A stretch of 59,718 nucleotides of DNA from Gammaproteobacteria bacterium. Lineage in GTDB: Bacteria > Pseudomonadota > Gammaproteobacteria > Poriferisulfidales > Poriferisulfidaceae. A program made the position numbers and the translations under genes. The notes under the pieces are model-generated. The model was not told the DNA's origin and ran no database searches. It saw only the letters and a list, made by a program, of their open reading frames with translations. Location: contig JAPONY010000038.1 of NCBI GenBank assembly GCA_026713705.1, forward strand, positions 1 through 59,718, written 5' to 3'. This document shows, in pieces, positions 345-40,797 of the stretch (the first letter of the stretch is position 1; each line of letters starts with the position of its first letter).

Positions 345-3300
345 TTAGTCTTCTTCAGTTTGAATATAGACCGCCTTTTCAATCCGATTTCTCGCAGATT
401 CGCTTAGCCTTGCGATCCCGAGTGCGCGGGCAATTTTGACCGCATCACCATTTAATGACAATGCTTTACTTATAGCGCGCAATTCTTCAGAGCAAATATG
501 CTCGATTTTGCGCAAGTCTGAATTCCGATTTCGGTGGCGATGGGGGGTAACGCGATGTTTCACAGTTCCTTTTGCCCAGAAGAAAGTACCAACTACTTTT
601 TCTCGTGTTGAACCTCGGCGTTTCTTAGCCAGATCTATGATGATGTCTTTAATCTTTCCCCCTGCTCTACGAAACCCATGATGCAGGGCGATCTTCCGGA
701 CCAGGACATCCTCGTGTATCGGACCTTCAATATCAATCACGTAATCTAGCATCGCATTCAGGCGATGTTTGTAAGCATCGCTGTAGAAGGCCGCCACATC
801 AGGTTCGAATTCAATATCGCCCTTATTGAGGTCAGCCTCAATATAGTCGTGATTGTTTCCGACAAGAGGGGGATGGTCGTCTTCTTCATCAACTAGTTGC
901 GCCATTGAATCTGGTTTCTGTTTTCCGTTGTTTTCAGTGTTCGGGTGAATACCTTGTTCGTTTGAGGCATGTAATGTGGTACCCGTTTGATTCGGTTTGC
1001 CTGTTAGTGGGGGTTGCCCACTGTTTGCCGAATGTGGATCTGGAATGTCCTTGACAGATTTTTCAAGACTTTCTTCTGCTTGAGTATTTACATGTCGCTT
1101 CTCCCTTTGGCGATCAGCATCAAGGTATTTGTGCAGAGCTTGGTCTACCTTCTCAAGTGCTTTTTCTTTATGCGTCCACCAATCAGTTGACCATATGCGG
1201 AAGAGAGTCCACCCGAGGCCTTCCAATACGGATTGGCGTATTTTGTCGCGTTCCCGTGCTGTGGCAGAACTATGGTACATCGCACCGTCGCATTCGATGC
1301 CTGCAAGATAGCGCCCTCGTTGATCCGGATGGACAACACCTAGGTCGATTCGGTAGGCGGAAACACCTATTTGAGGGTGTACTTCCCAGCCCTTTACTTT
1401 CAGTTCGCGTGAAACGGCGGATTCGAAAGGCGATTCAAAGTCTCCGACAGAGCCTTGAACGGTTGATTTCAGCGCGGAGGCACCTTTTTCAGCATATTCT
1501 AAGAATTGTTTCAAATGTTTAACTGCAAGAGCTTGACTGCGTGAAAGATCAATTCGGTCTGGGGACAAGGTGGAAAAAACGATCATTTCAATACGTGCCC
1601 GCGTCATCGCAACATTCAATCGCCTTTCTCCTCCCTGCCTATTCAGAGGGCCAAAGTTCATGACCATATGGTCGTTCCGGTCTGGTCCATAAGTGATGCT
1701 GAACAATATGACGTCTCGTTCATCTCCCTGTACGGTTTCCAGATTTTTGACAAATACAGGTTCGTTTGTTTCGCTTTGGGAGAAGGACATCTCGATTTCA
1801 GGCCTTTCTAAACGAGCTTTGTCCAGTAAGTCTTCGATCAAAGTCTGTTGCTCGGAATTGAAAGTTACCACGCCGATGGAGCGTTGCCGAATGTCGGGGT
1901 TTTCGTGCGTCAAGCGTGCAATGATTTCGCCCACAATGGCTTTAGCTTCGCTTTCGTTGTGTCTCGCATCACCTCGGGCGTAGAATCCTTCGGGTCGTAC
2001 GAGACGAACCGCGTTATCTTTCACATCGGGAGCAGGAAATGTGATTAACGTATTGTCGTAGTAGCGGTCGTTAGAGAAAGAAATTAAGCTTTCTCTACGT
2101 GACCGGTAGTGCAGATTAAGGGTGCATTGCGGAATACCTGCACCCAGCATTTCGTCAAGAATACTTTCCAAATCTCCTTCTGTTTCGACCATGCCGTCAG
2201 GATCATTGTCCGCTCGTGCGAAGAAATTTGTTGGTGGCATTTGTTTTGGATCACCTGCTGTGATCACCTGCTTTCCGCGGGCGATTGCACCAACTGCATC
2301 CCAAACGGTAATTTGTGATGCTTCATCGAAAATTACTACATCAAACAGCCGTTGGTCAGGAGGTAGATATTGAGCGACTGAGAGAGGAGACATCATGAAA
2401 CAGGGAGCGAGAGTCGTCATTACCTCTGGAGCCTCACCTAGCAGCCTCCGGACCGGTTTATGCCGCATTTTCTTTTGTATCTCGTGTCGAATAATGCCCC
2501 ACTGTGAGCTCTTTTTGACTTCACCTTGCTCTGGCAGTTTGCCAGCAAGTTTGGCGGCGATGTATTGAGCCGTTAGTTTTTGGAATCTGCCGTCGGCCTC
2601 GCAGAACTTTTCAATCTGCCGTTCATGCTCGGGTGAGGAAAATGAGCGCAGCACTTCATCTTCTTCGATGATAGCTGAAGACCACCAAGTGCAGTATGCT
2701 GCTTCAAAAACCTCTTGCATGTCCCCAGGGCTGACATGGCCTTGTTCTACTGCCTCCACAAGCGGCAGAAGGTCGATGTCGACAGCTTCTAGCCGACGCC
2801 GACGCCAATCGCACCAAGCCCGAATTTCATGTTTTCGCTCGGAGATATTATTTGCGACTTTTTGCAGTTCCTCAAGGGCATGGACTTCGTTTGCAAAAAT
2901 GTCAGAAACCGATCCACCTGCCATGGCCTCAAACTGGTCACTGGCATTCTGGAGTTCTTCATATGATTCAGCAAAATCAGTCGCTACACGTCTTATATTG
3001 CCTTCCGGCGCGAGCAGATCGTTACCCTCATGTAGAAGAGTCTGGATTTGTTTTCGAATTTCGAGAAATTCATCTGGCTTCTCGGCCAGTTTGGCAACGA
3101 TGATGCGGGCACGCTCACCGAGTTGATGAAGAGATTCGGCAACAGCTGATTCAGTAGAATGCCCAGCCCATTCCTTGAAAGAAGAAAGCTGTTGATCAAG
3201 CCGATCAATTACTTCGCCATTCTCGCGGAGTTTGGAAAGAAGTTTCGCATCATGTTCGGGGTTTGGCTTCCCTTGAGCTCCTCCTGTCTGTATTTCCTTG

Positions 3301-6300
3301 ATTATGCGCCGTCGTGTTAGGAAACGTTTGGGCCACCACATGGTAGTGGTTTCCAACCAGCGTCGAGCTATTGCCTCGCCATCAAGGGATCTCCAGGCGA
3401 ATGCGTCGTATGAGCAACTGAGGGAAGCCTGTGCGTGTGCATATGCCTTCAGACGTTCAATGGCTTCCTTGAAAGCATCAATCTGATCCTGTCCGTTTGG
3501 TTCAAGAGCGTAAGCTGTTGGTTGTCGGTATGAATCGGCTAATAGAGACGTTAAGTCGATTAATGCATTAAGGCGAATGATCGATTGGTCAGAGAGGGGC
3601 AGTCCGATGACTTCGCAGAGGGTGGAGCAATTTTTTCTGGTTCTGTCCGCTAGGGTCGCTAATTTTTCAGCCTGTTCAACGATTTCCCCTTCCCACCCTG
3701 GAGTCCACTTACCTTCCTCAATGAGCTGGAAGGGGCTTGCAGATAGATCATCTATTTCTTTTGCTTGAATGGCAAGTTTTTCAACTATGCCGCGCATCTT
3801 TTCGAGGGTTGATTCGTCGTGTTGCTGAGCTGAGGGCCAAGATAACTTCAGGCGGTCGGCAAGCAATTCATCTCGGATTTTTACACCAACTGCATAGTAG
3901 GGAGTAAGCCCATTTCTGTGTTTTTTATGGAGATGGTTCACAATTAGATTCAACTGCCCTCGCAATTCCAGAAGGTTTTCAGCTTCCCGATGCCAGTCGT
4001 CTTCTGATTTCTGAGCAGAGAGTTGCCATGTGGCAGCCAGTTGTCTCAATACATCAGCTTTCTTGGCTTTATTGGAATGGAGTTCGAGGCAGAAATGGCC
4101 GAGGCCAATTTCTTTCAGTCTACGGTGAACCACTTCTAGCGCCGCGGTCTTTTCCGAGACAAAAAGAACAAGCTTCCCCTTGCCCAGCATGTGAGCAATG
4201 AGATTAGCGATAGTCTGGCTCTTTCCTGTCCCGGGCGGCCCGATAATGATGAAGTCTTTTCCCCGATCAGCTGTCGCGATTGCGGCGGCTTGGGAAGCAT
4301 CCGCTGATAGGGGCATGAACAAGTCAGATGGCTTATAGGTTTTGTCTATTTCTTGAGGTTTGATGAATTCAGTCTTGCTGTCGTATGGCTCCCTCGGTGT
4401 ATCCAGCAGGTGACGAACCACGGCGTTTTCCCGCAATGCATCGGTACGGTCCGCCAAATCTTTCCACATGAGATATTTGGCAAAAGAGAAGTGGCCTAAT
4501 GCGACATCTTCGACAACCTCAAAACCAGGCGCATCCTTTACGGCCATTCGCACTTGGAGCCAGATTCCATCGACGTCGATGCCGCTCTCATCCGTTGGCA
4601 AGTCACCATCAAGACTGGGAAGGTCAATCCTAAAGTCCTTACGCAACATCTCCAACAGGGTCGTGTTAAAGCGTGGCTCATCGTCGTGAGAGCTCATCCG
4701 AATGCCGCTGCGAACGGATTTTCTGGTGAGCGTTACAGGAAGGAGAATTAATGGAGCCCGGCAGCGTTTTGGGTCTTTTTCGTTCTTTTTCCAAAGCAGA
4801 AAACCGAGAGCTAGGTATAAAGTATTGGCGCCACCTTCTTGCAGAGCAGTTTGAGTCTTACGGTAGATTCCAACAGCACGCTTGTCTAGCTCGTCTTTGG
4901 ACAAAGACACAAGGACGCAGTTATGCTCAAGTTGCTCAAGCGCATATTCCTCTGTAATTTCTTCTCCTGTCCGCTGGCGATGAATTTCTTGATCTTGTTC
5001 CTGCGATGTGGGTGAGGGAACAGGGATGATTCGGATTTGACTTCCGGAGGCTAATTTGTCTTCCAGCCGCCCAGGTTTTGGGCAGATAATTTGTAGGGTG
5101 GTTTTTGTTGACCGGTGATTCAGTAGGCGATTGTTTAGTGTTAGATCCAACAAACGTCGCTGCCAACGCTCTAAGCGCCCTTCGGGTGTTGTAGGCTTTT
5201 CTTCTTCAAGTTCGTTGCTGGTGAAGCCGGGCAGGGGTGGAGGCTCTTCTAGTGGTAATTCCGTCACCGTCGAGACTGCTTCCTCTTCATGGGCTGTCTT
5301 TACTTTTAGGGCTAAGGGGGTGATGCGGTGTGCCCGAGCTTGGCGTATGTCAACAGCGCAAGTGAATGTTTCATCAGAGCTAGGATGAATGGCTTTTAGA
5401 CCACTAGTGCACGCTTGAGAGAATGCCACGGGGGATGACGATGTTACGTATGTTGTCTCGAACAGAAGCAACTCCTTTAAATCTATACGTTTTCTCAAGA
5501 TTTCTGCGTCTTCCACGACAATACTGGAAAATTCTTCGGGCTGAAGCCAGACGCCTGCCAGTGCATGTCCTTCGGGTAGGGCGACTACGGGATTAAGCCC
5601 TACTTGCTCTAGGGCTGATGCGAACAACATTGCGGTATCGAGGCAGGTTCCGGTTTTGTTGCTGATAATGTGATTCGGAAGACGCACTTTCTGGCCATTT
5701 TTCTCGAAACTTCGTGGAGGGGTGGCATAGGTCAGCCCAAGTTTCACGACTGCCGAATAAATAGCTGCCGCGATCTCCCATACCCGCTCGCAGCTTTGAG
5801 ACTGGTAGCCATCTATTTGGCTGGATTTTCCTGCTCGCCGGAGAACCTCACTTGCGTCATGAATGATTCTGTCGACAGATGGATCGTTCGGCATACAGAA
5901 CGCGGCCAATAATTCAGGCATAAAATCGGCCCCGCCCCATTCGTTGTAGGCCAGCAATTCCACGGGTTTTACCAACTCTGCAAGGACAACCTCATCTTTC
6001 GTGAGCAGGAACGACATACTGCCCCGAGTCGTTTCGGCGAGGTTCCGTAGAAACTCACCGCTGATTTGGATGTCTCGGTCTTGGACCGACACGGCTTCTT
6101 TCGCGCTTATGCGATCTAGGGGCCAAGACTTCTCTTCGATAAAGTGGGGATCTGATTTAAGTGTGAGGACCAGATTCTCTAGAGGCTGATCCTCGCTGGT
6201 GTTTTCGATACGGAGATCATGTAACAGCGCGTACGAACTTTGATGCGCTGCAAAATTTAGTTTTGCCGAAATTTCGGCATGAATTTTTATAGATTCGTTA

Positions 6301-6314
6301 GATTCATGACTCAT
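345..6314 (-). CDS. Giant DUF4011-SF1 helicase-nuclease protein, Hhe-like anti-phage protein
   Basis: A 1989-residue cytoplasmic protein. Domains in order: an N-terminal region with a transglutaminase-like core (GTCLD near 222-226, GHALAGVW near 249-256); DUF4011 starting near 377 (LERWQRRLLDLTLNNRLLNH); an SF1 helicase with Walker A GPPGTGKSQ near 692-700, Walker B DEASQ near 1330 and QGDERDV near 1530; a Vsr/MTES_1575-like PD-(D/E)XK nuclease with IECDGAMYH near 1675; and a DUF3320-like C-terminus near 1820-1890. The DUF4011-helicase-Vsr order matches the single-protein anti-phage system known as Hhe, so nucleic-acid unwinding coupled to cleavage of invading DNA is likely. It is followed on the same strand by another nuclease-like gene's 3' end, and lies next to a divergent second helicase-nuclease. 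Family assignment is firm; the role of the transglutaminase-like part is unknown. Confidence 0.88.
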   Translation of the reverse strand: MSHESNESIKIHAEISAKLNFAAHQSSYALLHDLRIENTSEDQPLENLVLTLKSDPHFIEEKSWPLDRISAKEAVSVQDRDIQISGEFLRNLAETTRGSMSFLLTKDEVVLAELVKPVELLAYNEWGGADFMPELLAAFCMPNDPSVDRIIHDASEVLRRAGKSSQIDGYQSQSCERVWEIAAAIYSAVVKLGLTYATPPRSFEKNGQKVRLPNHIISNKTGTCLDTAMLFASALEQVGLNPVVALPEGHALAGVWLQPEEFSSIVVEDAEILRKRIDLKELLLFETTYVTSSSPVAFSQACTSGLKAIHPSSDETFTCAVDIRQARAHRITPLALKVKTAHEEEAVSTVTELPLEEPPPLPGFTSNELEEEKPTTPEGRLERWQRRLLDLTLNNRLLNHRSTKTTLQIICPKPGRLEDKLASGSQIRIIPVPSPTSQEQDQEIHRQRTGEEITEEYALEQLEHNCVLVSLSKDELDKRAVGIYRKTQTALQEGGANTLYLALGFLLWKKNEKDPKRCRAPLILLPVTLTRKSVRSGIRMSSHDDEPRFNTTLLEMLRKDFRIDLPSLDGDLPTDESGIDVDGIWLQVRMAVKDAPGFEVVEDVALGHFSFAKYLMWKDLADRTDALRENAVVRHLLDTPREPYDSKTEFIKPQEIDKTYKPSDLFMPLSADASQAAAIATADRGKDFIIIGPPGTGKSQTIANLIAHMLGKGKLVLFVSEKTAALEVVHRRLKEIGLGHFCLELHSNKAKKADVLRQLAATWQLSAQKSEDDWHREAENLLELRGQLNLIVNHLHKKHRNGLTPYYAVGVKIRDELLADRLKLSWPSAQQHDESTLEKMRGIVEKLAIQAKEIDDLSASPFQLIEEGKWTPGWEGEIVEQAEKLATLADRTRKNCSTLCEVIGLPLSDQSIIRLNALIDLTSLLADSYRQPTAYALEPNGQDQIDAFKEAIERLKAYAHAQASLSCSYDAFAWRSLDGEAIARRWLETTTMWWPKRFLTRRRIIKEIQTGGAQGKPNPEHDAKLLSKLRENGEVIDRLDQQLSSFKEWAGHSTESAVAESLHQLGERARIIVAKLAEKPDEFLEIRKQIQTLLHEGNDLLAPEGNIRRVATDFAESYEELQNASDQFEAMAGGSVSDIFANEVHALEELQKVANNISERKHEIRAWCDWRRRRLEAVDIDLLPLVEAVEQGHVSPGDMQEVFEAAYCTWWSSAIIEEDEVLRSFSSPEHERQIEKFCEADGRFQKLTAQYIAAKLAGKLPEQGEVKKSSQWGIIRHEIQKKMRHKPVRRLLGEAPEVMTTLAPCFMMSPLSVAQYLPPDQRLFDVVIFDEASQITVWDAVGAIARGKQVITAGDPKQMPPTNFFARADNDPDGMVETEGDLESILDEMLGAGIPQCTLNLHYRSRRESLISFSNDRYYDNTLITFPAPDVKDNAVRLVRPEGFYARGDARHNESEAKAIVGEIIARLTHENPDIRQRSIGVVTFNSEQQTLIEDLLDKARLERPEIEMSFSQSETNEPVFVKNLETVQGDERDVILFSITYGPDRNDHMVMNFGPLNRQGGERRLNVAMTRARIEMIVFSTLSPDRIDLSRSQALAVKHLKQFLEYAEKGASALKSTVQGSVGDFESPFESAVSRELKVKGWEVHPQIGVSAYRIDLGVVHPDQRGRYLAGIECDGAMYHSSATARERDKIRQSVLEGLGWTLFRIWSTDWWTHKEKALEKVDQALHKYLDADRQREKRHVNTQAEESLEKSVKDIPDPHSANSGQPPLTGKPNQTGTTLHASNEQGIHPNTENNGKQKPDSMAQLVDEEDDHPPLVGNNHDYIEADLNKGDIEFEPDVAAFYSDAYKHRLNAMLDYVIDIEGPIHEDVLVRKIALHHGFRRAGGKIKDIIIDLAKKRRGSTREKVVGTFFWAKGTVKHRVTPHRHRNRNSDLRKIEHICSEELRAISKALSLNGDAVKIARALGIARLSESARNRIEKAVYIQTEED

Positions 6315-6438
6315 GGCGTAAGTGAATTGATTGAACGTCAGAAAAATGCAAGCTACCTGCTTGAGAGTTTTAGCGGGGCTGAGGATGACACGGGTGGAGA
6401 TATCATGATTTCAGGGCACTGAACGATTATTTCCCGAT

Positions 6439-7881
6439 CTATATCTGCCACGGTTTTACTGATTTGCTAGGAATGGTGGGCTTTTTGCCATTTGAATCGT
6501 TCGAATCCTCCGATAGACTCGTTGTGGGTCGTGCGGAGCTATGCGGATCAGACTTTTTTGATGGCGAAGCATCATCCTTACTTTGGACTGGATCTCGTTT
6601 CTCAATGGCAGGGGGTGGCGGTATCCAAGGCCGCAAGTGTTGCCCAATTCGTTCATAGAACTCAGGGACCACCTTTTCTAGGTCTTCAATAAAAGTTTTC
6701 CGCCTAGAGAACCGGCCGGCAAGGTCTGTAACGATTACAACTTCAAATTTTTTCAATACAGCACCAGCTCCCCCATTTTCAAGACATTTCGGATTGTCAC
6801 GAATTTCGGACAACTTTGCTTGGGTCGATTTTCTTCCTCTGAGCCAGAAAGCCCTGATGATGACATCACTTCCATCGACATTTTTCAGTTGTCGGATCAA
6901 CCAATTTATTCTGGCGCTAGTACGCTGTTTATCCTCGGGGGCTTTTAGAGCCATAGAGCATGAGATTGTCCGGCGTTGCAAGTTGACAGTGACGTCAAGA
7001 TTGCTTGCTGCATTCGGTATGTAGAAGCTAGAGTAAAGTTCTTGTAGGGTGGCCAAAGAATCACTCGCATCGCGAAGCCGGATGGAAGGGTCATTTTGAT
7101 GTTTCCGTGGAAGATTAATGCCAATATGTTTGCCCATACGGCGGCTTAATATTAGACAAATATCTCTTTCTTCCTGATGCCAACTTGCGATGGTGTTTTC
7201 AATTTCGGGCGAAGCTCTGGAGTATTGTTGTCCTTCGCGGATCCCAAGAATGAGTGGTTGCCATTCTGGATTCATTTGGTCAAAGCGCTTGATTCCAGAA
7301 TTTGGGTGTTCGAAAAAGCGCACCATCTCCCCGAGAACATATGCTTGTTCTGGGACCAATTCTTCTCTGTCTCTTAAAATCAATGACGCTTGAGTAAGTA
7401 TGCTAATCCATGAGAGATGGAAAAATTGGCACGATTTAGTGAACCTTTTGGGGATCGAATATGGAATGTGTGTTGGCAAAGATACTAATTGGTTAGACAG
7501 AGTGATTATCGCGTCGATTCCATATTCACGGGCTATTCCCGCATACCGGAGCATCTGGTCTTCATCAATTTTCGCATTACCGGTTTTTGCTTCCAAAAGT
7601 GCCGTCCATTGGCCGTTGCGCGTGGACAAGATCAAAATCCCATCAGGTCGCTCTTTGCCGTTGTTGCCAGATGCCGGAAATTCGACTTCTGTGTAACTAG
7701 ACAATTGGGATGTTTTCTTTACACGGACCGCACAGCTTAATACTTGCTCCGCGAGCGCACGTGTTACGGATAGAGTGGCGAGCAAAATAGATACGATACG
7801 CTCTTCTTTGCTTGAATCGGCAACGGTCGGAATCAGTCTGGCACGACTGGCGTTTTTCAGGATGCTATCAAGCGCGTTCAT
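6439..7881 (-). CDS. PD-(D/E)XK nuclease-like protein of unknown family
   Basis: A 480-residue protein with an ATG at 7879-7881 and no obvious Shine-Dalgarno. Near the N-terminus, RPDGILIL (Asp about 80), then ALLEAKTG (Glu 97 and Lys 99), and a following helix with DEDQMLRYAG form a PD-D...ExK arrangement typical of the restriction-endonuclease fold. A strand ending in DAIITLSNQ follows, as in these folds. The C-terminal 80 residues are polar, rich in Pro/Ser/Lys, and probably disordered. It lies 124 bases upstream of the giant Hhe-like gene on the same strand, so the two are probably co-transcribed, and it is divergent from the helicase gene at 8136. I infer a nuclease or DNA-end sensing subunit of that block; the middle of the protein is not recognised. 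Confidence 0.65.
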   Translation of the reverse strand: MNALDSILKNASRARLIPTVADSSKEERIVSILLATLSVTRALAEQVLSCAVRVKKTSQLSSYTEVEFPASGNNGKERPDGILILSTRNGQWTALLEAKTGNAKIDEDQMLRYAGIAREYGIDAIITLSNQLVSLPTHIPYSIPKRFTKSCQFFHLSWISILTQASLILRDREELVPEQAYVLGEMVRFFEHPNSGIKRFDQMNPEWQPLILGIREGQQYSRASPEIENTIASWHQEERDICLILSRRMGKHIGINLPRKHQNDPSIRLRDASDSLATLQELYSSFYIPNAASNLDVTVNLQRRTISCSMALKAPEDKQRTSARINWLIRQLKNVDGSDVIIRAFWLRGRKSTQAKLSEIRDNPKCLENGGAGAVLKKFEVVIVTDLAGRFSRRKTFIEDLEKVVPEFYERIGQHLRPWIPPPPAIEKRDPVQSKDDASPSKKSDPHSSARPTTSLSEDSNDSNGKKPTIPSKSVKPWQI

Positions 7882-8001
7882 GAATCAATGGACCCGGAGA
7901 GTCCAGATTTTAAATTTGGGGATACGGGCCCAGCCTGCGTATGACGAATTGTAGGATGTGGAAAAAACTCGGTTCTTTTTGTTAATAACTGGGCATATTA
8001 G

Positions 8002-8028
8002 TAGCAAATAATAGCAAATTAATTGACG
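8002..8028 (+). promoter_or_regulatory. Tandem TAGCAAAT repeats and -35-like box between divergent helicase-block genes
   Basis: The intergenic region 7882-8135 is AT-rich. TAGCAAAT occurs twice, at 8002-8009 and 8012-8019, one helical turn apart, immediately before TTGACG (8023-8028), a plausible -35 element for the plus-strand helicase gene. A TCGAAT at 8046-8051 gives 17-base spacing but is a poor -10. Two half-sites on one DNA face would suit a repressor. This is inference from spacing only. Confidence 0.3.
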
Positions 8029-8135
8029 ACCGTTATTGGTTCCTATCGAATACCCGAGTAAACTGCGTCGCAACTTTGGCAAGTTCCGCTCTAGTAAAGG
8101 GTTGCAATAAAAACCTCAAGACAGACAACAAGGCA

Positions 8136-11100
8136 ATGAATTTAAAAGTTGGACAGAAAGTTGATCTCACTGGAAGACTCAGCAACAGGCAGATACACCG
8201 GCCTGATAGTGGTCAGCCTTTTGTGAAAGCAACCCTCCTTGTCGAAGGCAGAGAAGAACAACTGACCGTGTTGTGGTGGGATGCGGGCCGGGCTCCGCGA
8301 GATGGCGCACGAGTTCGCATTCAGGGAACAGTCCGTATTTTCAATCAAGGCGACCCGGAGGTTCATGTAGACAAGGCCACGGTAGAGCGAAAGGACCCAC
8401 CCCAAGATGCACTAGCCGTCATTACTGGCTTTTATCTCGAATGTGTCGAGGCGGAGGCAGCCGGGTCGTTATGCCAAAAACTAGATAGTTCAGATCATAT
8501 CGAGCTCGCTGATGGTGTGAGTCCCTTGCACGGGTCAATCACTTTTCCCAATAACCAGGCAGCCCGGCGATGGTGCCAATTGCGGCAGGGGGCTCTTGGC
8601 GAAACACTCATCACTGGCTGGCCACTTGTCGTGGGCGCAGGGCCTGAATCTAGAGGCCGACATCTTGAGCTTTCTCCTCTTCTAATAACTGAAGTGGAGT
8701 TGAATTCTGTCGAGGGCAATTGGCAATTTGAGCAACTAGGTGATGGCGTGGATCTCAACCCATTTGCGCTTAGTCTATTGGGTCTTGATCGTGATGAAAG
8801 GGCGGCATTGGTTACTGCTGTTGGGAAAAGCATCGAAGTTGAGGAGGCCGTGACACCAGGGAATTGCGCGGCAGCCATTCTTGAGGTGCTTGAAGACGCA
8901 GGTGTCGAAGGGCTGAAAGAGCTGGATTCAACGATGCTTTCGTCCTTTCCGAATGCAACAGGAATACATAATGCCGGAATAATAATGGCTACTTCTGGAA
9001 GCCTAGCTAGTACACGAAAGTTGACTGATGATCTGGAAGAATTGGTCAACATGCCGCAGTTGATGGAGGAGGGTCCGGCAGGAGTGTTGCTTGGCAAGAT
9101 AACAGCCCCCGAAGTCCCGGTTCCAAATCCACACCCTACGGTGGCGTTTTCCTCGTTGAAGCAGGATGAGGCTGTTCATTCTGCAATGGAGAATGTTTTT
9201 ACGGTGGTGACTGGCCCGCCAGGCACTGGAAAATCTCAAATTCTCGTGAACGTTGTAGCAGCGGCAGTGGCTAAAAATGAAACGGTATTGCTTGCGTCGA
9301 AAAATAATAGAGCTGTGGATGTTGTCGTAGAAAGGTTGCGGATGACTTCGCCTCGCGCTGTTGTAGTTCGCGCAGGCGGGACCGACAAACGAAGTGAAGT
9401 CGCGCAGTACATTGCAGAAATATTAGCTAGGAGCCCACGCCCAGTTAATTTAGGGGACGCTCGCAGGAAATGGAAAACTATCGAGGATAGGCTTAAAGCT
9501 GTTTATCAGGCACTACATCAACGAATTCGGATTGAGGGTGAGCTTTCAGAAATTCGATTTCGACTTGATGAACGCTTGAGTCAGCTTCCGCCTCACATAA
9601 TGCTTGACATCGATTTGAATGAATTGGATTCTGTGCTAACCGATGCGCGGAATACGCTTGATGCTTTTGGCACATGGCTGGGCTTTTTTCGGCGTTGGCG
9701 TCGGCATCAGAGGCGACTGGATTGTGCGAGAGAAGCACTCGAACGTCTTGGAACTCTACTTAATCTCAACGGGCCGGAAATCAAGAAATGCTTGTTATCG
9801 GTTACTGACCGTCCCAAAAGATCACTGGAGCCACGCAGAGACTTTCATTCTGTCGAGGAGGTGGTTGGCAGCCTACGTGATGCTTTGGAATGTCGGAAGA
9901 GAATAATTGAAATTACGTCGCAACTCGCGAAACTACCTCAAAAGCATGAACTTGATGACCGTTTGAACGAACTCTCGGGAGAACGGGTTGAGGCTGGGCA
10001 GGCGCTGCTGGATGCGCGGTGGGAGGAGCTTCGCGCCGCCAACCCGGTGGCACGGACTGCCGCAAATGAATGTGCTGATTTTTTGGAGCAGGCGGCAACA
10101 AAAGGCGGAGGATTAAGGAAAGCCTTTGGCCGTATCCCCGCCGCGTTGCCAGTATTGCCCGTTTGGGCCGTTACAAACTTGTCAGCACGAACGAACTTGC
10201 CATTGAAAGCCGGATTATTCGATCTGGTGGTTATCGACGAGGCATCGCAATGTGACGCGGCATCTGCCTTGCCTATTCTCGTTCGGGGTAAGCGAGCGTT
10301 GATTATCGGCGACAGAAAGCAACTTATTCATATTACGTCACTAAGTCGAAGCCGAGAACAGGTCATTGCACGAAAGTGGGGGCTGACAGACGATCAAGTA
10401 GAAGAATTTAGCTACCGGAGGCGGAGTTGTTTCGGGCTCGCATTTTCCCGAATACAAACATCACCTATATTCTTAGATTTGCATTTTCGTTCGCACCCGG
10501 CAATTGCAGGCTTCCCGAACAAACAATTTTATGGTGGCAAGATGGAATTGTGTAGTGACGTGAAGTCCCCTGGCGGCATGCGGGCTGTGGAATGGGTTCG
10601 TGTCTCGGGGCAGAGTAGCCGAGGGCCTCGGGGACGTAGCCGAGTGAATCGGGAGGAGGCGAATAAAGTGGCGACGGGAATTGCACGGGCATTTTCAACC
10701 TATAAGGGTTTAGGGTGTTCGGTTGGAGTGGTCACTCCCTATGGCGCACAGGCCAAACTGATACACGAACAGCTGTCGAAAATGATTGCTGGCGAGGACT
10801 TGGAGTCAATAAAAATTGCGACAGCACATCGATTTCAAGGCGATGAACGGGATGTTATGTATTTCTCACCGGTCGTCGACAAAGCAATGCAAGAGCATCA
10901 AGTGCGATTTGCGGCTGACCCCAACCTTATCAATGTTGCCTTGACACGTGCCCGTTGCCGGCTTGTCATTGTAGGAGATATTGAGGCATGTATGGAACAT
11001 AAGACCGTGCTAAAGGACTTAGCGAATTACGTGGCACGGCTTGAAGCCGAAGGCTTTGACAGCCCGCTTGAACTGGATTTGTTTGAGGCGTTGTTGAAGC

Positions 11101-11351
11101 AGGGGATTGCCGCCAAAACGGGCGTCATTGTTGGTCGGCATCGGCTGGATATTGCTGTCGAACAAGACGGGGTTCGCTTGGATGTGGAATGTGATGGTGC
11201 GGCGTTTCATCGGGACCGCGAGAAAGATGCGGTGCGGGATCATGCCATTGAGGCGGAGGGATGGAAAGTCATGCGCTTCAGCGGGCGTTATCTCAGTCGT
11301 GATATGGAAGCGTGTGTCGAAGCAATTTTGAGAGAGACAACTTCTAGTTGA
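8136..11351 (+). CDS. SF1 helicase with C-terminal Vsr/MTES_1575-like nuclease
   Basis: A 1071-residue protein, using the ATG at 8136; the reading frame stays open back to a TTG at 8076 but the alignment-like start MNLKVGQKVDL is better. Residues about 1-75 look like an OB fold. Helicase motifs follow: GPPGTGKSQ near 360, DEASQCDAASALP near 697, HRFQGDERDV near 898, and NVALTRARCRLVIVGD for motifs V/VI. A coiled, charged insert of about 250 residues separates Walker A from Walker B. The C-terminus carries RLDIAV...DVECDGAAFH near 1000-1020, the DUF559/MTES_1575 nuclease signature also present in the giant protein on the other strand. Its position, divergent from a nuclease-like gene and the Hhe-like gene, argues for a joint defence role, but it could be an independent system. 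Confidence 0.85.
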   Translation: MNLKVGQKVDLTGRLSNRQIHRPDSGQPFVKATLLVEGREEQLTVLWWDAGRAPRDGARVRIQGTVRIFNQGDPEVHVDKATVERKDPPQDALAVITGFYLECVEAEAAGSLCQKLDSSDHIELADGVSPLHGSITFPNNQAARRWCQLRQGALGETLITGWPLVVGAGPESRGRHLELSPLLITEVELNSVEGNWQFEQLGDGVDLNPFALSLLGLDRDERAALVTAVGKSIEVEEAVTPGNCAAAILEVLEDAGVEGLKELDSTMLSSFPNATGIHNAGIIMATSGSLASTRKLTDDLEELVNMPQLMEEGPAGVLLGKITAPEVPVPNPHPTVAFSSLKQDEAVHSAMENVFTVVTGPPGTGKSQILVNVVAAAVAKNETVLLASKNNRAVDVVVERLRMTSPRAVVVRAGGTDKRSEVAQYIAEILARSPRPVNLGDARRKWKTIEDRLKAVYQALHQRIRIEGELSEIRFRLDERLSQLPPHIMLDIDLNELDSVLTDARNTLDAFGTWLGFFRRWRRHQRRLDCAREALERLGTLLNLNGPEIKKCLLSVTDRPKRSLEPRRDFHSVEEVVGSLRDALECRKRIIEITSQLAKLPQKHELDDRLNELSGERVEAGQALLDARWEELRAANPVARTAANECADFLEQAATKGGGLRKAFGRIPAALPVLPVWAVTNLSARTNLPLKAGLFDLVVIDEASQCDAASALPILVRGKRALIIGDRKQLIHITSLSRSREQVIARKWGLTDDQVEEFSYRRRSCFGLAFSRIQTSPIFLDLHFRSHPAIAGFPNKQFYGGKMELCSDVKSPGGMRAVEWVRVSGQSSRGPRGRSRVNREEANKVATGIARAFSTYKGLGCSVGVVTPYGAQAKLIHEQLSKMIAGEDLESIKIATAHRFQGDERDVMYFSPVVDKAMQEHQVRFAADPNLINVALTRARCRLVIVGDIEACMEHKTVLKDLANYVARLEAEGFDSPLELDLFEALLKQGIAAKTGVIVGRHRLDIAVEQDGVRLDVECDGAAFHRDREKDAVRDHAIEAEGWKVMRFSGRYLSRDMEACVEAILRETTSS

Positions 11352-15065: not shown

Positions 15066-16235
15066 TCACTCATTCCCGCCAGTTTCCTCCGTTTCGAACC
15101 TGGGAAGCGGATCGGGTAAGTAAATGCTGTGCTTTCGAACTCCGATTTCATGCTCGATCAGGAGATCTACGAGTTTTTCTCCATCAATGAGTGTGATTGG
15201 TTGAGCACGACTATCGAGAGCGGTTTCCTTCGTTTTATTAGAGAATTTCGAAGTTGTGATGAGGGTCCCCCTAATAGCACCGAAGCGGTAAAGCGAGCCG
15301 CGAAGGGCGTCGAGATCCTTGGGTGGAGTGGTCCTGCCATGTCTCTTGACCTGGATAACCTCTTTCACTGATGTAATGCCGACCTCAATGCTCGCGATTA
15401 CATCGACACCGCCATCTCCCGAGCTTGCCGTTACTTCCGCATTCTCATAACCCATCTTGTCTATAAGGAATTTCACTAGATATTCAAACTGCCGGGGGTC
15501 CATGCTGCGCAAGCGCTTCAAAAGGTCTTCCCGGGTTTTGTTCTTTTGGGGTTTCAGCCATTCATGGAATTCCGATGTTAGATCGTTACCGGCATCTTTA
15601 AACTTTCTGAGATACGTAGAACCCTCGCTGGTCAGTGAATATCTCACACCATCACGTTCTATCAGATTCCGCTCAAGGAGATTGTTGATTCGTGACCGGA
15701 GACAGGTCATGAAAGTGGAGGGGCTGCGGAAATTGGAATTGAGTTTGAGATGGTGGCCCCAATCTTCACGAATTCCGCTAACGCGTGTTGGCTCATTATT
15801 TTTAACTAAGGAAAGAAGAGCGACGAGTCCTTCTCGTTCATCAAGACATTGTTCAGTTTGACCGGGGTCATGGTTGACGAATTCTTGACCATCTTTGGTG
15901 AGTTGAAGTTTGCCTTCAGAAGCTTCACTGAGAAGCTTGTACTTTTGAATCAGGCTCCAGTGGCCATAGGTATACCGTGGGTTGACAGTCTTACCACTCT
16001 GTTCCCAGATGAGCGCAGCGAGTTCTCGGTTCTTACCTTTAAGTCGTTCAGCGATCCATTCGCCAGGATTGGTCCAGTCGACGACGTCTTGAGGCGTTCC
16101 TGTCAGATTCCAGATAGATTGATTCAATCCAGTGAGTTGTGTTCGAAACCACCCATCCCAGATTCGGAGAAGGTGGCGAACTTCGCCATATGGGGGAAAG
16201 TGAGGGACACTTATGCGCGATTCATTTTGGCTCAT
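15066..16235 (-). CDS. Mrr-like type IV restriction endonuclease
   Basis: A 389-residue protein. The C-terminal part holds the Mrr catalytic domain: MDPRQFEYLVKFLIDKMGYENAEVT near 245-270, SGDGGVDVIA with the catalytic Asp, and IQVKRH as the QxK motif near 298-303, ending in the LITTSKFSNKTKETA helix typical of these enzymes. Residues about 80-215 match the winged-helix Mrr N-terminal domain, here preceded by roughly 80 extra residues. Mrr-family enzymes cleave modified DNA. It is a stand-alone gene; the 214 bases downstream (14852-15065) contain nothing I can support. Confidence 0.85.
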   Translation of the reverse strand: MSQNESRISVPHFPPYGEVRHLLRIWDGWFRTQLTGLNQSIWNLTGTPQDVVDWTNPGEWIAERLKGKNRELAALIWEQSGKTVNPRYTYGHWSLIQKYKLLSEASEGKLQLTKDGQEFVNHDPGQTEQCLDEREGLVALLSLVKNNEPTRVSGIREDWGHHLKLNSNFRSPSTFMTCLRSRINNLLERNLIERDGVRYSLTSEGSTYLRKFKDAGNDLTSEFHEWLKPQKNKTREDLLKRLRSMDPRQFEYLVKFLIDKMGYENAEVTASSGDGGVDVIASIEVGITSVKEVIQVKRHGRTTPPKDLDALRGSLYRFGAIRGTLITTSKFSNKTKETALDSRAQPITLIDGEKLVDLLIEHEIGVRKHSIYLPDPLPRFETEETGGNE

Positions 16236-19657: not shown

Positions 19658-21517
19658 ATGGCCATAGAAACTCAGCAGAATAGAGAGATTGACGGTAAAG
19701 GTCGCTCCATTCGCGAATTGCTGGCACATCGAAAATACCTAATCGATGATAATTATCAGCGCGAATATAAGTGGGAAAAAAAGCAAGTTATCGATTTAAT
19801 TAACGACCTATCAGCTAAATTTTTGGAGAGTTATAGAGAGAAGGACGATCGTGGTGCCGTTGCAAGGTATAGTCAATATTTTCTAGGGTCAATTATTATC
19901 ATTGATAAGAATGGGGAAAAGTATATTGTTGATGGCCAACAGCGCCTTACAACGCTAACATTGCTGCTAATTTTTCTTCGGCATCGACTTAGTGACCAAG
20001 ATCAAAAAGGACAACTTGCAGATCTTGTTTTTTCTCTGACAGACGGCACGCGTTCCTACAATCTCGATGTGCCTGAACGCAAGGAATGCATCTCAGCACT
20101 CTTCAGTGGAGAGGAATTTCCGGATGATGATGCTTCTAAGTCCGTGAGCAACATCATAGAGCGCTATGCGGATATTGAGGATCAGTTCCCTCAAGATTCC
20201 ATTAATGCTGACGCTTTGCCATATTTTGCGGATTGGTTAATTGGATACGTCCGCCTGATTGAGATAACAGCTTATTCCGATAGTGATGCCTATACCATTT
20301 TTGAAACTATGAATGATCGGGGGCTTTCGCTTACACCTATTGAAATGTTGAAAGGCTTTCTTCTTGCGAACATTGTTGAAACTGAGCATCGCGCAAGAGC
20401 GAATGATATTTGGAAAGAGCGTACACGGGCACTTACGCGAATCGACAAAGATGAGGATGCTAATGGAATCAAATCGTGGTTGCGTAGCCAGTATGCTAAA
20501 AGAATTCGCAAGCGCACGCAAGATGCCGTGCCTGAGGATTTTGATCTGATCGGCACTAAGTTTCACCGCTGGGTACGTGACAATCAGAGAGATATTTGTC
20601 TTACTACAAGCGAGGAGTTTGTGCAGTTTATTGAACGTGACTTTACTTTTTATAGCCGCTGGTATGAGCGCATACGACAAGCGGCTGAGACATACACTCC
20701 AGAGCTTAGGCACATATACTTCAACGCTCAACACAATTTCACCTTGCAATACCCTTTGCTGTTGGCGCCACTTAAAATTGACGACAATGAAAACATCGTG
20801 TTACGAAAGTTGTGTATCGTGGCGATGTGGATTGACATACTGATTCATCGGCGTATTTGGAACTGGAGGGCAATTGACTACTCAACAGTGCAATACACCA
20901 TGTTCCAAGTTATGCTTAAAATTCGTAGGAAAAGCGACAGAGCACTAGCTGAAGAACTATACAAATCTCTTAACTCAACCGATGAGACATTTGCTATCAA
21001 TGATCGAAATGCCAATTTTGGATTACATGCCCAAAACGGGCCACAGATTCATCGCTTACTTGCTCGGATGATTGATTTCCTAGAAACGGGATCAGGACAG
21101 GAATCTCGTTATACTGAATATGCTCAGCGAGGCCGCGGGAAGTACGAAATTGAACACGTCTGGGCCAATCATCCGGAATGGCACATCGAAGATTTTTCCG
21201 ATCAACACGAATTCGCTGAATATCGTGACCGTATTGGCGGTCTTCTTCTCTTGCCAAAAAGTTTTAATGCAAGTTATGGCGACTTGCCATATGTCAAAAA
21301 ACGCAAGTATTATCTTGAGCAGAATTTATTGGCGCGTAGCCTTCATGAGCAGGCGTACGAGCGTAATCCAGGATTTATGAGGTTTATCGAGAAGAATGAA
21401 CTCCCATTCCGTCCTCATGCTGAGTTTAACAAGTCAGACTTAGATATACGGCAAGATCTATATCGGAATCTGGCAGAGAAGATATGGGACCCAAATCGTT
21501 TAATTCAGGAATCGTAA
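19658..21517 (+). CDS. GmrSD-like DUF262/DUF1524 restriction protein
   Basis: A 619-residue protein. The N-terminal DUF262 (GmrS-like, ParB-related) domain shows NYQREYKW near 32-39, YFLGSIIII, and IVDGQQRLTTLTLLL near 92-106. The C-terminal DUF1524 (GmrD-like HNH) domain shows YEIEHVWANHPEW near 498-510 with the catalytic His, and the trailing NASYGDLPYVKKRKYY. This single-chain GmrSD arrangement is that of type IV restriction enzymes that cut glucosylated or otherwise modified phage DNA, related also to BrxU and SspE. It is strongly AT-rich next to the GC-richer SulP gene, consistent with transfer. The 98-base upstream gap is AT-rich and probably holds the promoter. Confidence 0.85.
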   Translation: MAIETQQNREIDGKGRSIRELLAHRKYLIDDNYQREYKWEKKQVIDLINDLSAKFLESYREKDDRGAVARYSQYFLGSIIIIDKNGEKYIVDGQQRLTTLTLLLIFLRHRLSDQDQKGQLADLVFSLTDGTRSYNLDVPERKECISALFSGEEFPDDDASKSVSNIIERYADIEDQFPQDSINADALPYFADWLIGYVRLIEITAYSDSDAYTIFETMNDRGLSLTPIEMLKGFLLANIVETEHRARANDIWKERTRALTRIDKDEDANGIKSWLRSQYAKRIRKRTQDAVPEDFDLIGTKFHRWVRDNQRDICLTTSEEFVQFIERDFTFYSRWYERIRQAAETYTPELRHIYFNAQHNFTLQYPLLLAPLKIDDNENIVLRKLCIVAMWIDILIHRRIWNWRAIDYSTVQYTMFQVMLKIRRKSDRALAEELYKSLNSTDETFAINDRNANFGLHAQNGPQIHRLLARMIDFLETGSGQESRYTEYAQRGRGKYEIEHVWANHPEWHIEDFSDQHEFAEYRDRIGGLLLLPKSFNASYGDLPYVKKRKYYLEQNLLARSLHEQAYERNPGFMRFIEKNELPFRPHAEFNKSDLDIRQDLYRNLAEKIWDPNRLIQES

Positions 21518-25631: not shown

Positions 25632-26897
25632 ATGATGCAAACCACAACACACAATCCTGACCGCTACATGGCTGATTTGCGGCAAATCCTCTCACAGGGA
25701 CGTAAGCGCATTGGGTTTCTGCTCGGTGCGGGTATTCCTGCGGCAGTTAGAGTAAATGCCGAGGGGAAGCTTAGTGCTGATGGTCGGCCGATTCTTCCTG
25801 ATGTCGCCGGCTTGACCCCAAAAGTCCTTGATGAACTGGATGAGGCCGATAAAGAAATAGTAGACATTCTTTTGCCTGGAATGGGAGAGGAGCCGACTAT
25901 CGAACTAATTCTGACACGTATCCGTAGACTAGCCGAAGCGATAGGCGACATTGAAGTGCATGGTTTAGATGGTCGGGGTCATGCGGAGTTGGCGGAACGA
26001 ATCTGTGAAGCAATTGGAGAAATCGTTGGCTGCTCACTGCCTAAAGGCTCAGGCCCGTACACTCAGCTTATTTCATGGATTAGCGGGACACCCCGAGAAC
26101 ATCCAGTTGAGATATTTACTCCAAACTATGATCTGCTTTTCGAGGAAGCTTTTGAGCGTGCCCAAGTCCCTTATCACGATGGTTTTACTGGTGCACGCAG
26201 ACCGTTTTTTGATCCAGCGAGCATAGCTGACGATGAACTATCGCCACGTTGGTCTCGACTCTGGAAAATTCATGGGTCACTTGGCTGGGAGGTTGAGGAT
26301 GGAAAAATTGTGCGTACAGGCAGCCGCAAAGCCACTCATTTGATTTATCCCGATCACCACAAATACGATCAAATTAGCCGTCGGCCTTATTCGGCATTCT
26401 TCGAACGTCTTCGCACGTTCCTTATGACGCCTGATAGTCTGCTCATCTGTGCTGGTTTTTCTTTTTCGGACTCACATATAACAGCGGTTCTTGACGAAAC
26501 TTTGGCCGCTAATCCCCATACTGCTGTTATTGCGTTTGAATTTCGCGACTTAACTGAAGATACACCTTCCGCCCAGTTGGCTTTTCGCAGGTCCAGCGTT
26601 AATGTTTATGCGCGAAAGAATGCGATCATTTGTGGAACGTTGGGGCGATGGGAATTGGGAAAGGTACAAAAAGCATGGGAGCCCATCCGCAGGACCTATT
26701 GGGGGAGTGGGGGGAGTGATGCAGATGGAGGGTTTCTCTTAGGTGATTTTGCTTGGCTAGCAAACTTTCTTGCTCTTGCGCGGGCGGATGATCTGAAACC
26801 ACAATCCAGTACGCCGGATTCAGATCCAAACACCTCTGGCGCCGTAGATTCTCTCGAATCTGAAGAAGAGCCTGCTGATAGGCAAAACGGTGCTTGA
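25632..26897 (+). CDS. SIR2-like NADase, component of SIR2-HerA defence
   Basis: A 421-residue protein with a Sir2-like Rossmann domain: GFLLGAGIPAA near 28-38, FTPNYDLLFEEAF near 161-173 (the N-D pair), and WKIHGSLGW near 209-217 with the catalytic His. The C-terminal part (LLICAGFSFSDSHI) completes the fold, and the last 50 residues are low-complexity. Its stop overlaps the GTG of the following HerA-like gene. SIR2-HerA pairs form large complexes that deplete NAD+ and process DNA on phage infection, leading to growth arrest or death. The close coupling and partner make this identification strong. Confidence 0.87.
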   Translation: MMQTTTHNPDRYMADLRQILSQGRKRIGFLLGAGIPAAVRVNAEGKLSADGRPILPDVAGLTPKVLDELDEADKEIVDILLPGMGEEPTIELILTRIRRLAEAIGDIEVHGLDGRGHAELAERICEAIGEIVGCSLPKGSGPYTQLISWISGTPREHPVEIFTPNYDLLFEEAFERAQVPYHDGFTGARRPFFDPASIADDELSPRWSRLWKIHGSLGWEVEDGKIVRTGSRKATHLIYPDHHKYDQISRRPYSAFFERLRTFLMTPDSLLICAGFSFSDSHITAVLDETLAANPHTAVIAFEFRDLTEDTPSAQLAFRRSSVNVYARKNAIICGTLGRWELGKVQKAWEPIRRTYWGSGGSDADGGFLLGDFAWLANFLALARADDLKPQSSTPDSDPNTSGAVDSLESEEEPADRQNGA

Positions 26898-28734
26898 ACG
26901 GGACCCCACATTTTTGGGCACTGTCGCCTCCGTTTCTGGCTCGTCGGTCAGCATACGTTTGGCTCAATCTGTTGCTTCGGGCTTATCCATCATTGAGGGC
27001 AGAGCATATCGGATTGGCCAAGTTGGCAGCTTTGTCCGCATTCCTCAGGGCTATCAAGACCTATTTGGCGTTGTTTCTGAAGTTGGAGCAAGGGCAATGC
27101 CGGAAGATGCGCCAAGTGGAGAGACAGATACGGGGCGTTGGATGGAAGTTCAATTGGTCGGAGAATCGTTGGGTGGAATTTTCGAGCGCGGTATTAGTCA
27201 GCACCCAAATGTAGGGGATACTGTCCATATAACAACTGAAAGTAGCCTCGCTCGAATCTACGGAACAGACGATTCTGGGCAAATCACCATTGGTTCGCTT
27301 TCAAGCTCAGAAAGTATTCCGGCAAAGCTTTCGCTAGACGAACTGATAACGAGACACTCTGCTGTACTAGGCTCTACGGGTTCAGGGAAATCAACGACCA
27401 TCGCTAGTCTTTTGCAGGCGATCACCGCAGTGGCCAATGATAGTGCCGACTATCCCAGTGCGAGAGTTTTGCTGCTCGACATCCACGGAGAGTATCCAGG
27501 CGCTCTTTCAGATGTAGCCAGCATTTACTCTGTGGACCCACGACCAAATGAGCAAAAGCTCTTGATTCCATATTGGGCACTAAGTGCGGCAGACTTACTT
27601 AAATTTTTGACAGGTGGCGTTAGTGATACACAGGAGACTGCTTTTACGGACAAAATCCTTGAATTTAAACGCCAATCGCACGAGATTCAAAAATTTCCTG
27701 GTGTGGAGGCAAGTTCAATCACAGTCGATACGCCAATACCATTTAGCCTCAAGAATCTGTGGCATGATTTGATTGATTTCGAAATTTCTACCTTTGAAGA
27801 TAGTGATCGGAGCCAGCCAGCATTGGTTGAGAAAGGTGATGCGGAAGCACTGAAGAGTCCGCGGTATAAACCTCACGCGATGGGTGCGAAAGGACCGTTC
27901 CTAAATGCTGAAGCTATCGGAATTCGGAGGCAATTGAGTCTGCTCCGCTCCAAGATGCTTGATCCTCGTTATGATTTTCTTTTACGCCCAGGGCGTTGGG
28001 AGCCAGACCTTGAGGGGAGGGTCAAGTCCGATCTTGACGCTTTATTGAGCGGTTGGTTGGGTGCGGAGCACCCAATTACAATCCTTGATCTTTCCGGTGT
28101 TCCGAGTACGGTGCTTGAACTCCTCGTTGGGTCTATTCTAAAAATCGTATATGAATCGCTTTTTTGGAGTAGGGAAAAATCGGAGGGAGGGATTGAGCGC
28201 CCTCTCTTGGTTGTCATGGAAGAAGCTCATCGATACCTTTCTGCTGCGACGAACACCCTCGCTGCCGAGACCATCCAACGAATCGCTAAAGAAGGCCGCA
28301 AATACGGCATCGGTGCAATGGTCATTAGCCAACGTCCTTCTGAGGTTGATGACACCATTCTGTCCCAATGCGGGACTTTCTTGGCTCTCAGGCTTGCAAA
28401 CCCGACGGATCGCGAGCATGTTCGAGGCACGTTACCCGATGGGCTAGTTAGTCTGCTTGATATTCTGCCGGTTCTTCGCACAGGTGAGGCCATCGTAATG
28501 GGTGAAGCCGCGAAGTTGCCTATGCGTTGCCGCATCACCCTGCCTCCCGAGGAACGGCAACCGAGAAGCACCGACCCCAAAGTTAGCGAACAATGGTCGA
28601 TTCCCCGCAGGGAAGAGGGTTATAATCGTGTTGTCGCATCATGGCGTGCACAGAAGCCAAGAGCGGTTGTGGACGATCTTGATATAGAGCGTCTGCCAGT
28701 TCAAGATGAACCAGCAGGTGATTCTTCAGAATGA
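26890..28734 (+). CDS. HerA-like hexameric ATPase/translocase
   Basis: A 614-residue protein beginning at GTG 26890, eight bases inside the SIR2 gene. The N-terminal HAS-barrel-like region (about 1-130) is followed by Walker A GSTGSGKSTT near 161-170, VLLLDIHGEYPG near 195-206, and Walker B VVMEEAHRY near 438-446. Then KYGIGAMVISQRPSEVD and the LRLANPTDREHV arginine-finger region follow, all standard for HerA/DUF87 motor proteins. With the SIR2 partner it forms the SIR2-HerA anti-phage system; HerA assembles the complex and supplies ATPase or helicase activity. About 14 bases separate it from a KTSC gene that may belong to the operon. Confidence 0.88.
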   Translation: MLERDPTFLGTVASVSGSSVSIRLAQSVASGLSIIEGRAYRIGQVGSFVRIPQGYQDLFGVVSEVGARAMPEDAPSGETDTGRWMEVQLVGESLGGIFERGISQHPNVGDTVHITTESSLARIYGTDDSGQITIGSLSSSESIPAKLSLDELITRHSAVLGSTGSGKSTTIASLLQAITAVANDSADYPSARVLLLDIHGEYPGALSDVASIYSVDPRPNEQKLLIPYWALSAADLLKFLTGGVSDTQETAFTDKILEFKRQSHEIQKFPGVEASSITVDTPIPFSLKNLWHDLIDFEISTFEDSDRSQPALVEKGDAEALKSPRYKPHAMGAKGPFLNAEAIGIRRQLSLLRSKMLDPRYDFLLRPGRWEPDLEGRVKSDLDALLSGWLGAEHPITILDLSGVPSTVLELLVGSILKIVYESLFWSREKSEGGIERPLLVVMEEAHRYLSAATNTLAAETIQRIAKEGRKYGIGAMVISQRPSEVDDTILSQCGTFLALRLANPTDREHVRGTLPDGLVSLLDILPVLRTGEAIVMGEAAKLPMRCRITLPPEERQPRSTDPKVSEQWSIPRREEGYNRVVASWRAQKPRAVVDDLDIERLPVQDEPAGDSSE

Positions 28735-38914: not shown

Positions 38915-39475
38915 CTACCGCAGAGGTAGCCCTAGAGTCTTCAGAACCTCCCGAAGCTCGTCATCATGCCGAGCTGCACGCTGGAGGTCGCTCAGGTCAA
39001 AACGGGTATCTAACACATCAGCCGATGCAGGCTTCTTGTACTCGGGCCATTGTTTCCGAAGGGCTCGCAAGGTCTTGTCCGCTGCAACGAATTCTTGCTC
39101 ATGGCCAGCATGAAGTCGCAACAGCAATCCTTCAAGATTAGGTGTCAGATAGACCAAGCGTATGCCTCTCTGGCCTTTTAAGGCGATTTCGGGGTCCCGG
39201 TTGTTTGATCGGTCTTGCTTGATCCGGTCGGAATCGAGGAGAATCAACCCGGCAGCAAATTTCCCATGCGCGTCAGTACGTTTTCGATACTGGGCGACAG
39301 CATGATTCGCAATCGCGAGGCTATCTCCGCCGTCGCAAACGGTTATGTCGAGATGAACGATAGGGTTAGGGTGGTTGCGAAGGCGTTCAAGCCATCTCGC
39401 AAAAGACTTTTCACTTTCCCCCTCGGCACCGATGAAGAAGCGCTTTCGCTTCGGAACCGGGGGGCGGGGCGGCAT
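38915..39475 (-). CDS. RloB-like protein (Toprim/abortive-infection family)
   Basis: A 186-residue protein with a basic N-terminus, then FFIGAEGESEKSF near 13-25, GLILLDSDRIKQ near 75-86, and RLVYLTPNLEGLLLRLHAGHE near 105-125. The GEGxTE-like Glu and the D-S-D motif match the RloB/Toprim-like nuclease core, and the NLEGLL segment is characteristic. RloB genes pair with RloA-type AAA ATPases, as here (start 3 bases after the ATPase stop). It is probably the effector nuclease of an OLD-type abortive infection or restriction-linked module. Confidence 0.68.
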   Translation of the reverse strand: MPPRPPVPKRKRFFIGAEGESEKSFARWLERLRNHPNPIVHLDITVCDGGDSLAIANHAVAQYRKRTDAHGKFAAGLILLDSDRIKQDRSNNRDPEIALKGQRGIRLVYLTPNLEGLLLRLHAGHEQEFVAADKTLRALRKQWPEYKKPASADVLDTRFDLSDLQRAARHDDELREVLKTLGLPLR

Positions 39476-39478
39476 TCG

Positions 39479-40693: not shown

Positions 40694-40797
40694 AAGCAAA
40701 TCATAACATATTTTTGTCAACTGTTATATTTATTATGTAATTTATCGGGTATCTTACATGCGGAAGCAACACCATTCGATTTTACTGCTACGATTAA

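Follow-up and report, generated by a model that had tools for sequence, protein, structure and literature searches.

The three-gene locus and its AT-rich surroundings

The stretch of DNA analysed here in its whole length (59,718 nucleotides; hereafter, the window) carries, close to its first position, a giant gene, a middle gene, called MID in the following, and a gene for a UPF1-like SF1 helicase with a Vsr-type nuclease (Table 1). The three open reading frames are intact at the places given in the initial annotation, which had been made from the letters alone, and they lie, as described there, in an AT-rich block: the trio has a G+C content of 49%, and the window stays at 49% up to 28.7 kb and reaches 61% past that point. 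The island can be read from position 1, which is the contig end, and its first 28.7 kb contain more defence genes, encoding an Mrr-type PDC-S02 protein, a GmrSD-type protein and a SIR2-HerA type pair. Unrelated defence genes standing side by side are the expected state of an AT-rich defence island. Farther along the window, a RloB-like gene adjoins the gene of an AbiL/AAA_21-type ATPase (38915-40720), in an AT-rich patch with GC-rich surroundings.

MID and the giant gene are on the same strand and 124 bp apart, so that they could be co-transcribed; a terminator-like hairpin lies in the gap. The helicase gene is divergent from MID. An inverted repeat of 16 nt (88%; 7901-7916 and 8139-8154) lies at both ends of the promoter region from which MID and the helicase gene diverge, and may be due to chance.

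Table 1. Features of the three-gene locus and of the surrounding island, with their positions in the window.
Feature	Position	Strand	Basis
Giant ProA/PDC-S37 gene	345..6314	-	1989 aa; NF058533 and PADLOC PDC-S37 matches
DUF3320 (winged-helix) region of ProA	645..791	-	Pfam PF11784, 60 bits
MTES_1575 (Vsr-type) nuclease of ProA, residues 1630-1727	1134..1427	-	Pfam PF18741, 125 bits
DUF4011 of ProA, residues 387-557	4644..5156	-	Pfam PF13195, 172 bits
Transglutaminase-like Cys (C224, TCLD) and His (H250, GHA) motifs of ProA	5565..5645	-	Alignment
Terminator-like hairpin, MID/ProA gap	6348..6363	-	Consensus scan alone
MID gene	6439..7881	-	480 aa; PD-(D/E)XK nuclease by residues and predicted fold
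Second (C-terminal) domain of MID, residues 170-433	6583..7374	-	AF2 model of the domain alone, pLDDT 91.7
Nuclease domain of MID, about residues 1-170	7372..7881	-	Alignment, AF2, Foldseek
UPF1-like SF1 helicase gene with Vsr-type nuclease	8076..11351	+	1091 aa; Pfam AAA_11/AAA_12, MTES_1575/DUF559
MTES_1575/DUF559 nuclease of SF1 helicase	11076..11330	+	Pfam, 48 and 38 bits
Mrr-type PDC-S02 protein	15066-16235		Same island as the trio
GmrSD-type protein	19658-21517		Same island as the trio
SIR2-HerA type defence pair	25632-28734		PADLOC, 483 and 536 bits

The giant protein and ProA

Judged by its sequence, the giant protein is an intact member of the anti-phage protein ProA (PADLOC candidate PDC-S37). 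It matches the NCBIfam equivalog model NF058533 over residues 20-1952 with 2181.9 bits, for a cut-off of 1500, and its best PADLOC model is PDC-S37, with 1265 bits. It had initially been taken for Hhe, an identity that is ruled out by its NCBIfam score of 856.8 bits against NF042953, for a cut-off of 2000. The giant has DUF4011, helicase and nuclease segments in common with Hhe, and the two can be aligned piecewise only; with the ProA proteins of NF058533/PDC-S37, it has the same domain order and the same conserved motifs, and nothing essential differs.

The domain set of this ProA is complete, the TCLD, GHA, GPPGTGKS, DEASQ and IECDG motifs being intact in an alignment with 16 relatives, and TCLD and the His are kept in all 17 aligned sequences. 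The transglutaminase-like region has no Pfam match, and its name is taken from a description of MTES_1575-type giant proteins, which comprise a transglutaminase-like region, an SF-I helicase, a Vsr-type REase and a winged helix overlapping DUF3320, a HEPN region being also named for them (PMC3710099). The window giant has this MTES_1575-type architecture. Its nuclease motif IECDGAMYH (residues 1673-1681, positions 1272-1298) is conserved among relatives. The nuclease had been placed at the C-terminus; it is indeed present, but not at the very end, as the DUF3320 winged-helix region (residues 1842-1890) comes after it.

ProA-class matches were found in 36 of the 299 sampled genomes of the phylum and in 86 plasmid records, and the nearest sampled relative is 58% identical. 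In the open-licence literature, no paper naming ProA, PDC-S37 or links between TerD and nucleases was found. The anti-phage function and the substrate of the trio proteins are inferred. ProA is self-contained, with its transglutaminase-like region, DUF4011, UPF1-type helicase, Vsr nuclease and winged helix; the helicase would probably recognise invading DNA or replication intermediates and the nuclease would cut.

The divergent SF1 helicase-nuclease

The relatives of the helicase in the PDB are Upf1, Sen1 and Smubp-2. Its start is probably ATG 8136 rather than TTG 8076, since the former is directly ahead of the predicted OB-fold. Near its end, it carries VECDGAAFH (residues 1037-1045 of 1091 aa, positions 11184-11210), and the claim that the giant and the helicase have the same nuclease type holds, as MTES_1575 passes the Pfam cut-off of 38 in both (125 and 48 bits). 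The two proteins are 27% identical, which rules out a recent duplication as their origin. Furthermore, a Vsr-like nuclease tail is found in several of the helicase relatives compared; as such tails are common in this helicase class, their presence in both window helicases is expected and is no sign of joint function.

Compared with the UPF1-like defence helicases (PADLOC MkoC/MkoA; TIGR00376), the SF1 core is alike, but the window helicase fits these models partly only and is without recurring partners here. Its nearest relatives (about 30-36% identity) have different gene surroundings, of which several are defence-like, and neither ProA nor MID is among their neighbours. The SF1 helicase-nuclease is rare and distinct from ProA, although broadly of its kind. 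No helicase relatives were found in the viral scan and no MID in phage records, so that neither looks like a phage gene. Downstream of four helicase relatives (L013, L050, L178 and L179) are apparent membrane proteins and further large genes, with DUF2357 annotated in L013; these neighbourhoods could perhaps represent one recurring multi-gene system.

Domains and fold of MID

By its residues and predicted fold, MID is a true PD-(D/E)XK nuclease, in agreement with the nuclease-like protein initially noticed between the two helicase-nucleases. Residues D80, E97, K99, Q109 and Y113 are invariant in an alignment of 54 relatives, D80, E97 and K99 supporting the D...ExK assignment. The AlphaFold (AF2) model, for which two plasmid-derived alignment rows were left out, has a pLDDT of 89.6 and a restriction-endonuclease-like fold. 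Its top PDB matches with Foldseek are the restriction endonucleases EcoT38I, MspJI, PaqCI, McrC and BamHI (probability 0.96-0.99), these matches being marginal by E-value (best 1.9e-3) and low in TM-score, and both BFVD matches at E <= 0.001 carry names of this kind (PD-(D/E)XK nuclease; restriction endonuclease).

The nuclease domain thus has its catalytic motif and best fold matches in common with PD-(D/E)XK restriction endonucleases, but no family is above threshold. MID is matched by no NCBIfam model and by no PADLOC family, and the MID profile found nothing when run against PDB sequences. In Pfam, VRR_NUC is below threshold for MID, and the only weak matches recurring in the family are VRR_NUC, Mrr_cat and PDDEXK_4. 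We therefore call MID uncatalogued, in the sense of absent from Pfam, NCBIfam and PADLOC 2023. The C-terminal domain, which is confidently predicted when modelled by itself (pLDDT 91.7), has no PDB fold match at E <= 0.001.

MID would act as a single-gene nuclease, its N-terminal PD-(D/E)XK domain cutting DNA. The second domain might sense or recruit, together, in Actinobacteria, with an additional N-terminal TerD domain (see below).

Distribution and neighbours of MID

At least 221 MID relatives were found in a scan of 84,980 species genomes, the closest of which (64%, locus L069) lies among metabolic genes, and a viral scan gave two loci only. In the phylum sample, the distribution is patchy, with MID in 10 of 299 genomes (9 besides the window's own). 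The best 80 of the 221 genome loci and the two viral contigs were read together with as much as 10 kb on either side, contig ends permitting. MID is mostly a single gene, in very varied and often housekeeping contexts; defence-like genes near other MID loci include SIR2, KwaA, ShosA and E1/JAB. At E <= 1e-15, 28 PADLOC families are matched among 90 proteins directly beside MID vs 18 among 90 proteins at 6-10 kb. The enrichment of defence families beside MID over more distant genes is modest, and a defence role of MID is hence likely rather than shown. MID is a probable stand-alone nuclease of defence islands.

MID at a variable site of the same genus

MID is found with 68% identity in another genome of the same genus, G302, which has neither ProA nor a helicase relative at the thresholds used. 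There, MID (48% G+C; L177:1842-3851) is the sole cargo between lpd (65%) and thrS (63%). Of the two G302 stretches covering this site, one has some masked letters (N) to the left of lpd, which do not reach into the lpd-thrS interval. When this locus is compared with those of G000 (L173), G299 (L174), G300 (L175) and G301 (L176), a common homology boundary is seen 42 bp upstream of thrS in these four further species of the genus, one of which is represented by the genome of the window itself. The cargo before thrS differs in each species: (i) a D12 methyltransferase and a type II REase, (ii) a REase and GmrSD, (iii) a REase and GIY-YIG, or (iv) DndB/HEPN. The site upstream of thrS is thus a defence hotspot in the genus. 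As MID is the lone cargo at this variable site, it is exchanged there as one unit, an argument for its working without either ProA or the helicase.

Recurrence of the three genes

The initial annotation had proposed that the trio may form a larger composite system. When its recurrence was checked, the three genes were together at none of the loci read in other genomes and their homologs were found apart, the very outcome that the annotation had named as a refutation of the composite. Among the best 80 of 221 genome loci and the two viral contigs, a helicase relative is never beside MID, and a gene of the ProA/Hhe class, a distant relative, is beside MID at one of the 82 loci only, in Roseivivax (L137). 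This L137 giant is split into two ORFs and is on the same strand as MID, upstream instead of downstream of it. In its C-terminal part, this split giant (L137:5007-9806) appears to have regions resembling TerB and BRCT.

Besides the window's own, 9 of the 299 genomes in the phylum sample bear MID, and in these neither ProA nor a helicase relative is near it. The 17 ProA loci are likewise without MID and without a separate helicase relative; in two of them, the sequence upstream of ProA is shorter than 1 kb. Genomes with MID also have ProA no more often than expected by chance (2 of 9 vs 35 of 298; hypergeometric p = 0.29, not significant). The co-occurrence data from these MID loci, genomes and ProA loci rule out the three-gene composite as a recurrent arrangement.

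Three probably independent modules

Our results make it very probable that three independent defence modules have come to adjoin one another in an AT-rich defence island. This reading builds on what was directly observed, that is domains, intact catalytic residues, independent distribution and the occurrence of MID alone at the defence hotspot of a sister species. It retains one part of the alternative offered in the initial annotation, two systems sharing a site: the site is shared, but by three units and not two, and the giant among them is ProA and not Hhe.

A true composite, in which MID and the SF1 helicase-nuclease would be accessory subunits of a ProA-centred system assembled in this lineage only, would account for the adjacency of the genes, their common low G+C content and their layout, with MID and ProA co-directional and the helicase divergent, and could draw on L137 as one other locus where MID adjoins a ProA/Hhe-class gene. 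We nevertheless consider it very improbable, as relatives of each gene occur without the other two, the sister species carries MID alone and at another site, the gap from MID to ProA contains a terminator-like hairpin, and the single ProA chain holds all its catalytic parts. It is also improbable that MID and ProA form an operon of two genes in the window, to which the divergent helicase gene would be unrelated. The common strand and the short gap are what such an operon would present, and Roseivivax L137 also has both families adjacent on one strand; however, the order is reversed there, the giant is split and more distant, this is the case at a single one of 82 loci, and none of the 17 ProA loci has MID beside it.

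That MID could be no defence protein but a solitary nuclease of housekeeping or of a mobile element, such as a repair or homing-type enzyme, would fit a single gene with very varied, often housekeeping contexts and a modest enrichment of defence neighbours. We regard this as possible but unlikely, in view of its patchy occurrence in the phylum, its place in the defence hotspot of the same genus, the SIR2, KwaA, ShosA and E1/JAB genes among its neighbours elsewhere, and its fusion with TerD.

With three independent modules as the preferred reading, a tempting three-gene system is removed and MID, a single gene, becomes the sharper lead. It stands for a compact family of nucleases that occurs in at least 221 species and is missing from the libraries searched, and its second domain is confidently modelled and has no PDB counterpart. 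One proposal, which we hold as evenly balanced, is that MID would be the founding member of a hitherto undescribed family of anti-phage nucleases acting as single genes, with a sensor fold of a new type; the family would be spread over Pseudomonadota and other phyla and, in Actinobacteria, would be coupled to the Ter stress-response module through the TerD fusion. The actinobacterial plasmid relatives of MID that were scanned, from Rhodococcus and Streptomyces, have a TerD domain ahead of the nuclease; it is absent, according to Pfam, from the window MID. Three relatives on actinobacterial plasmids are annotated as TerD family (L011:9176-11272, L012:9218-11260 and L180:7122-9269), TerD being N-terminal in L011 and L012. 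In two Rhodococcus plasmids, the same pair of genes for hypothetical proteins (1101 and 1242 bp) precedes the MID relative.
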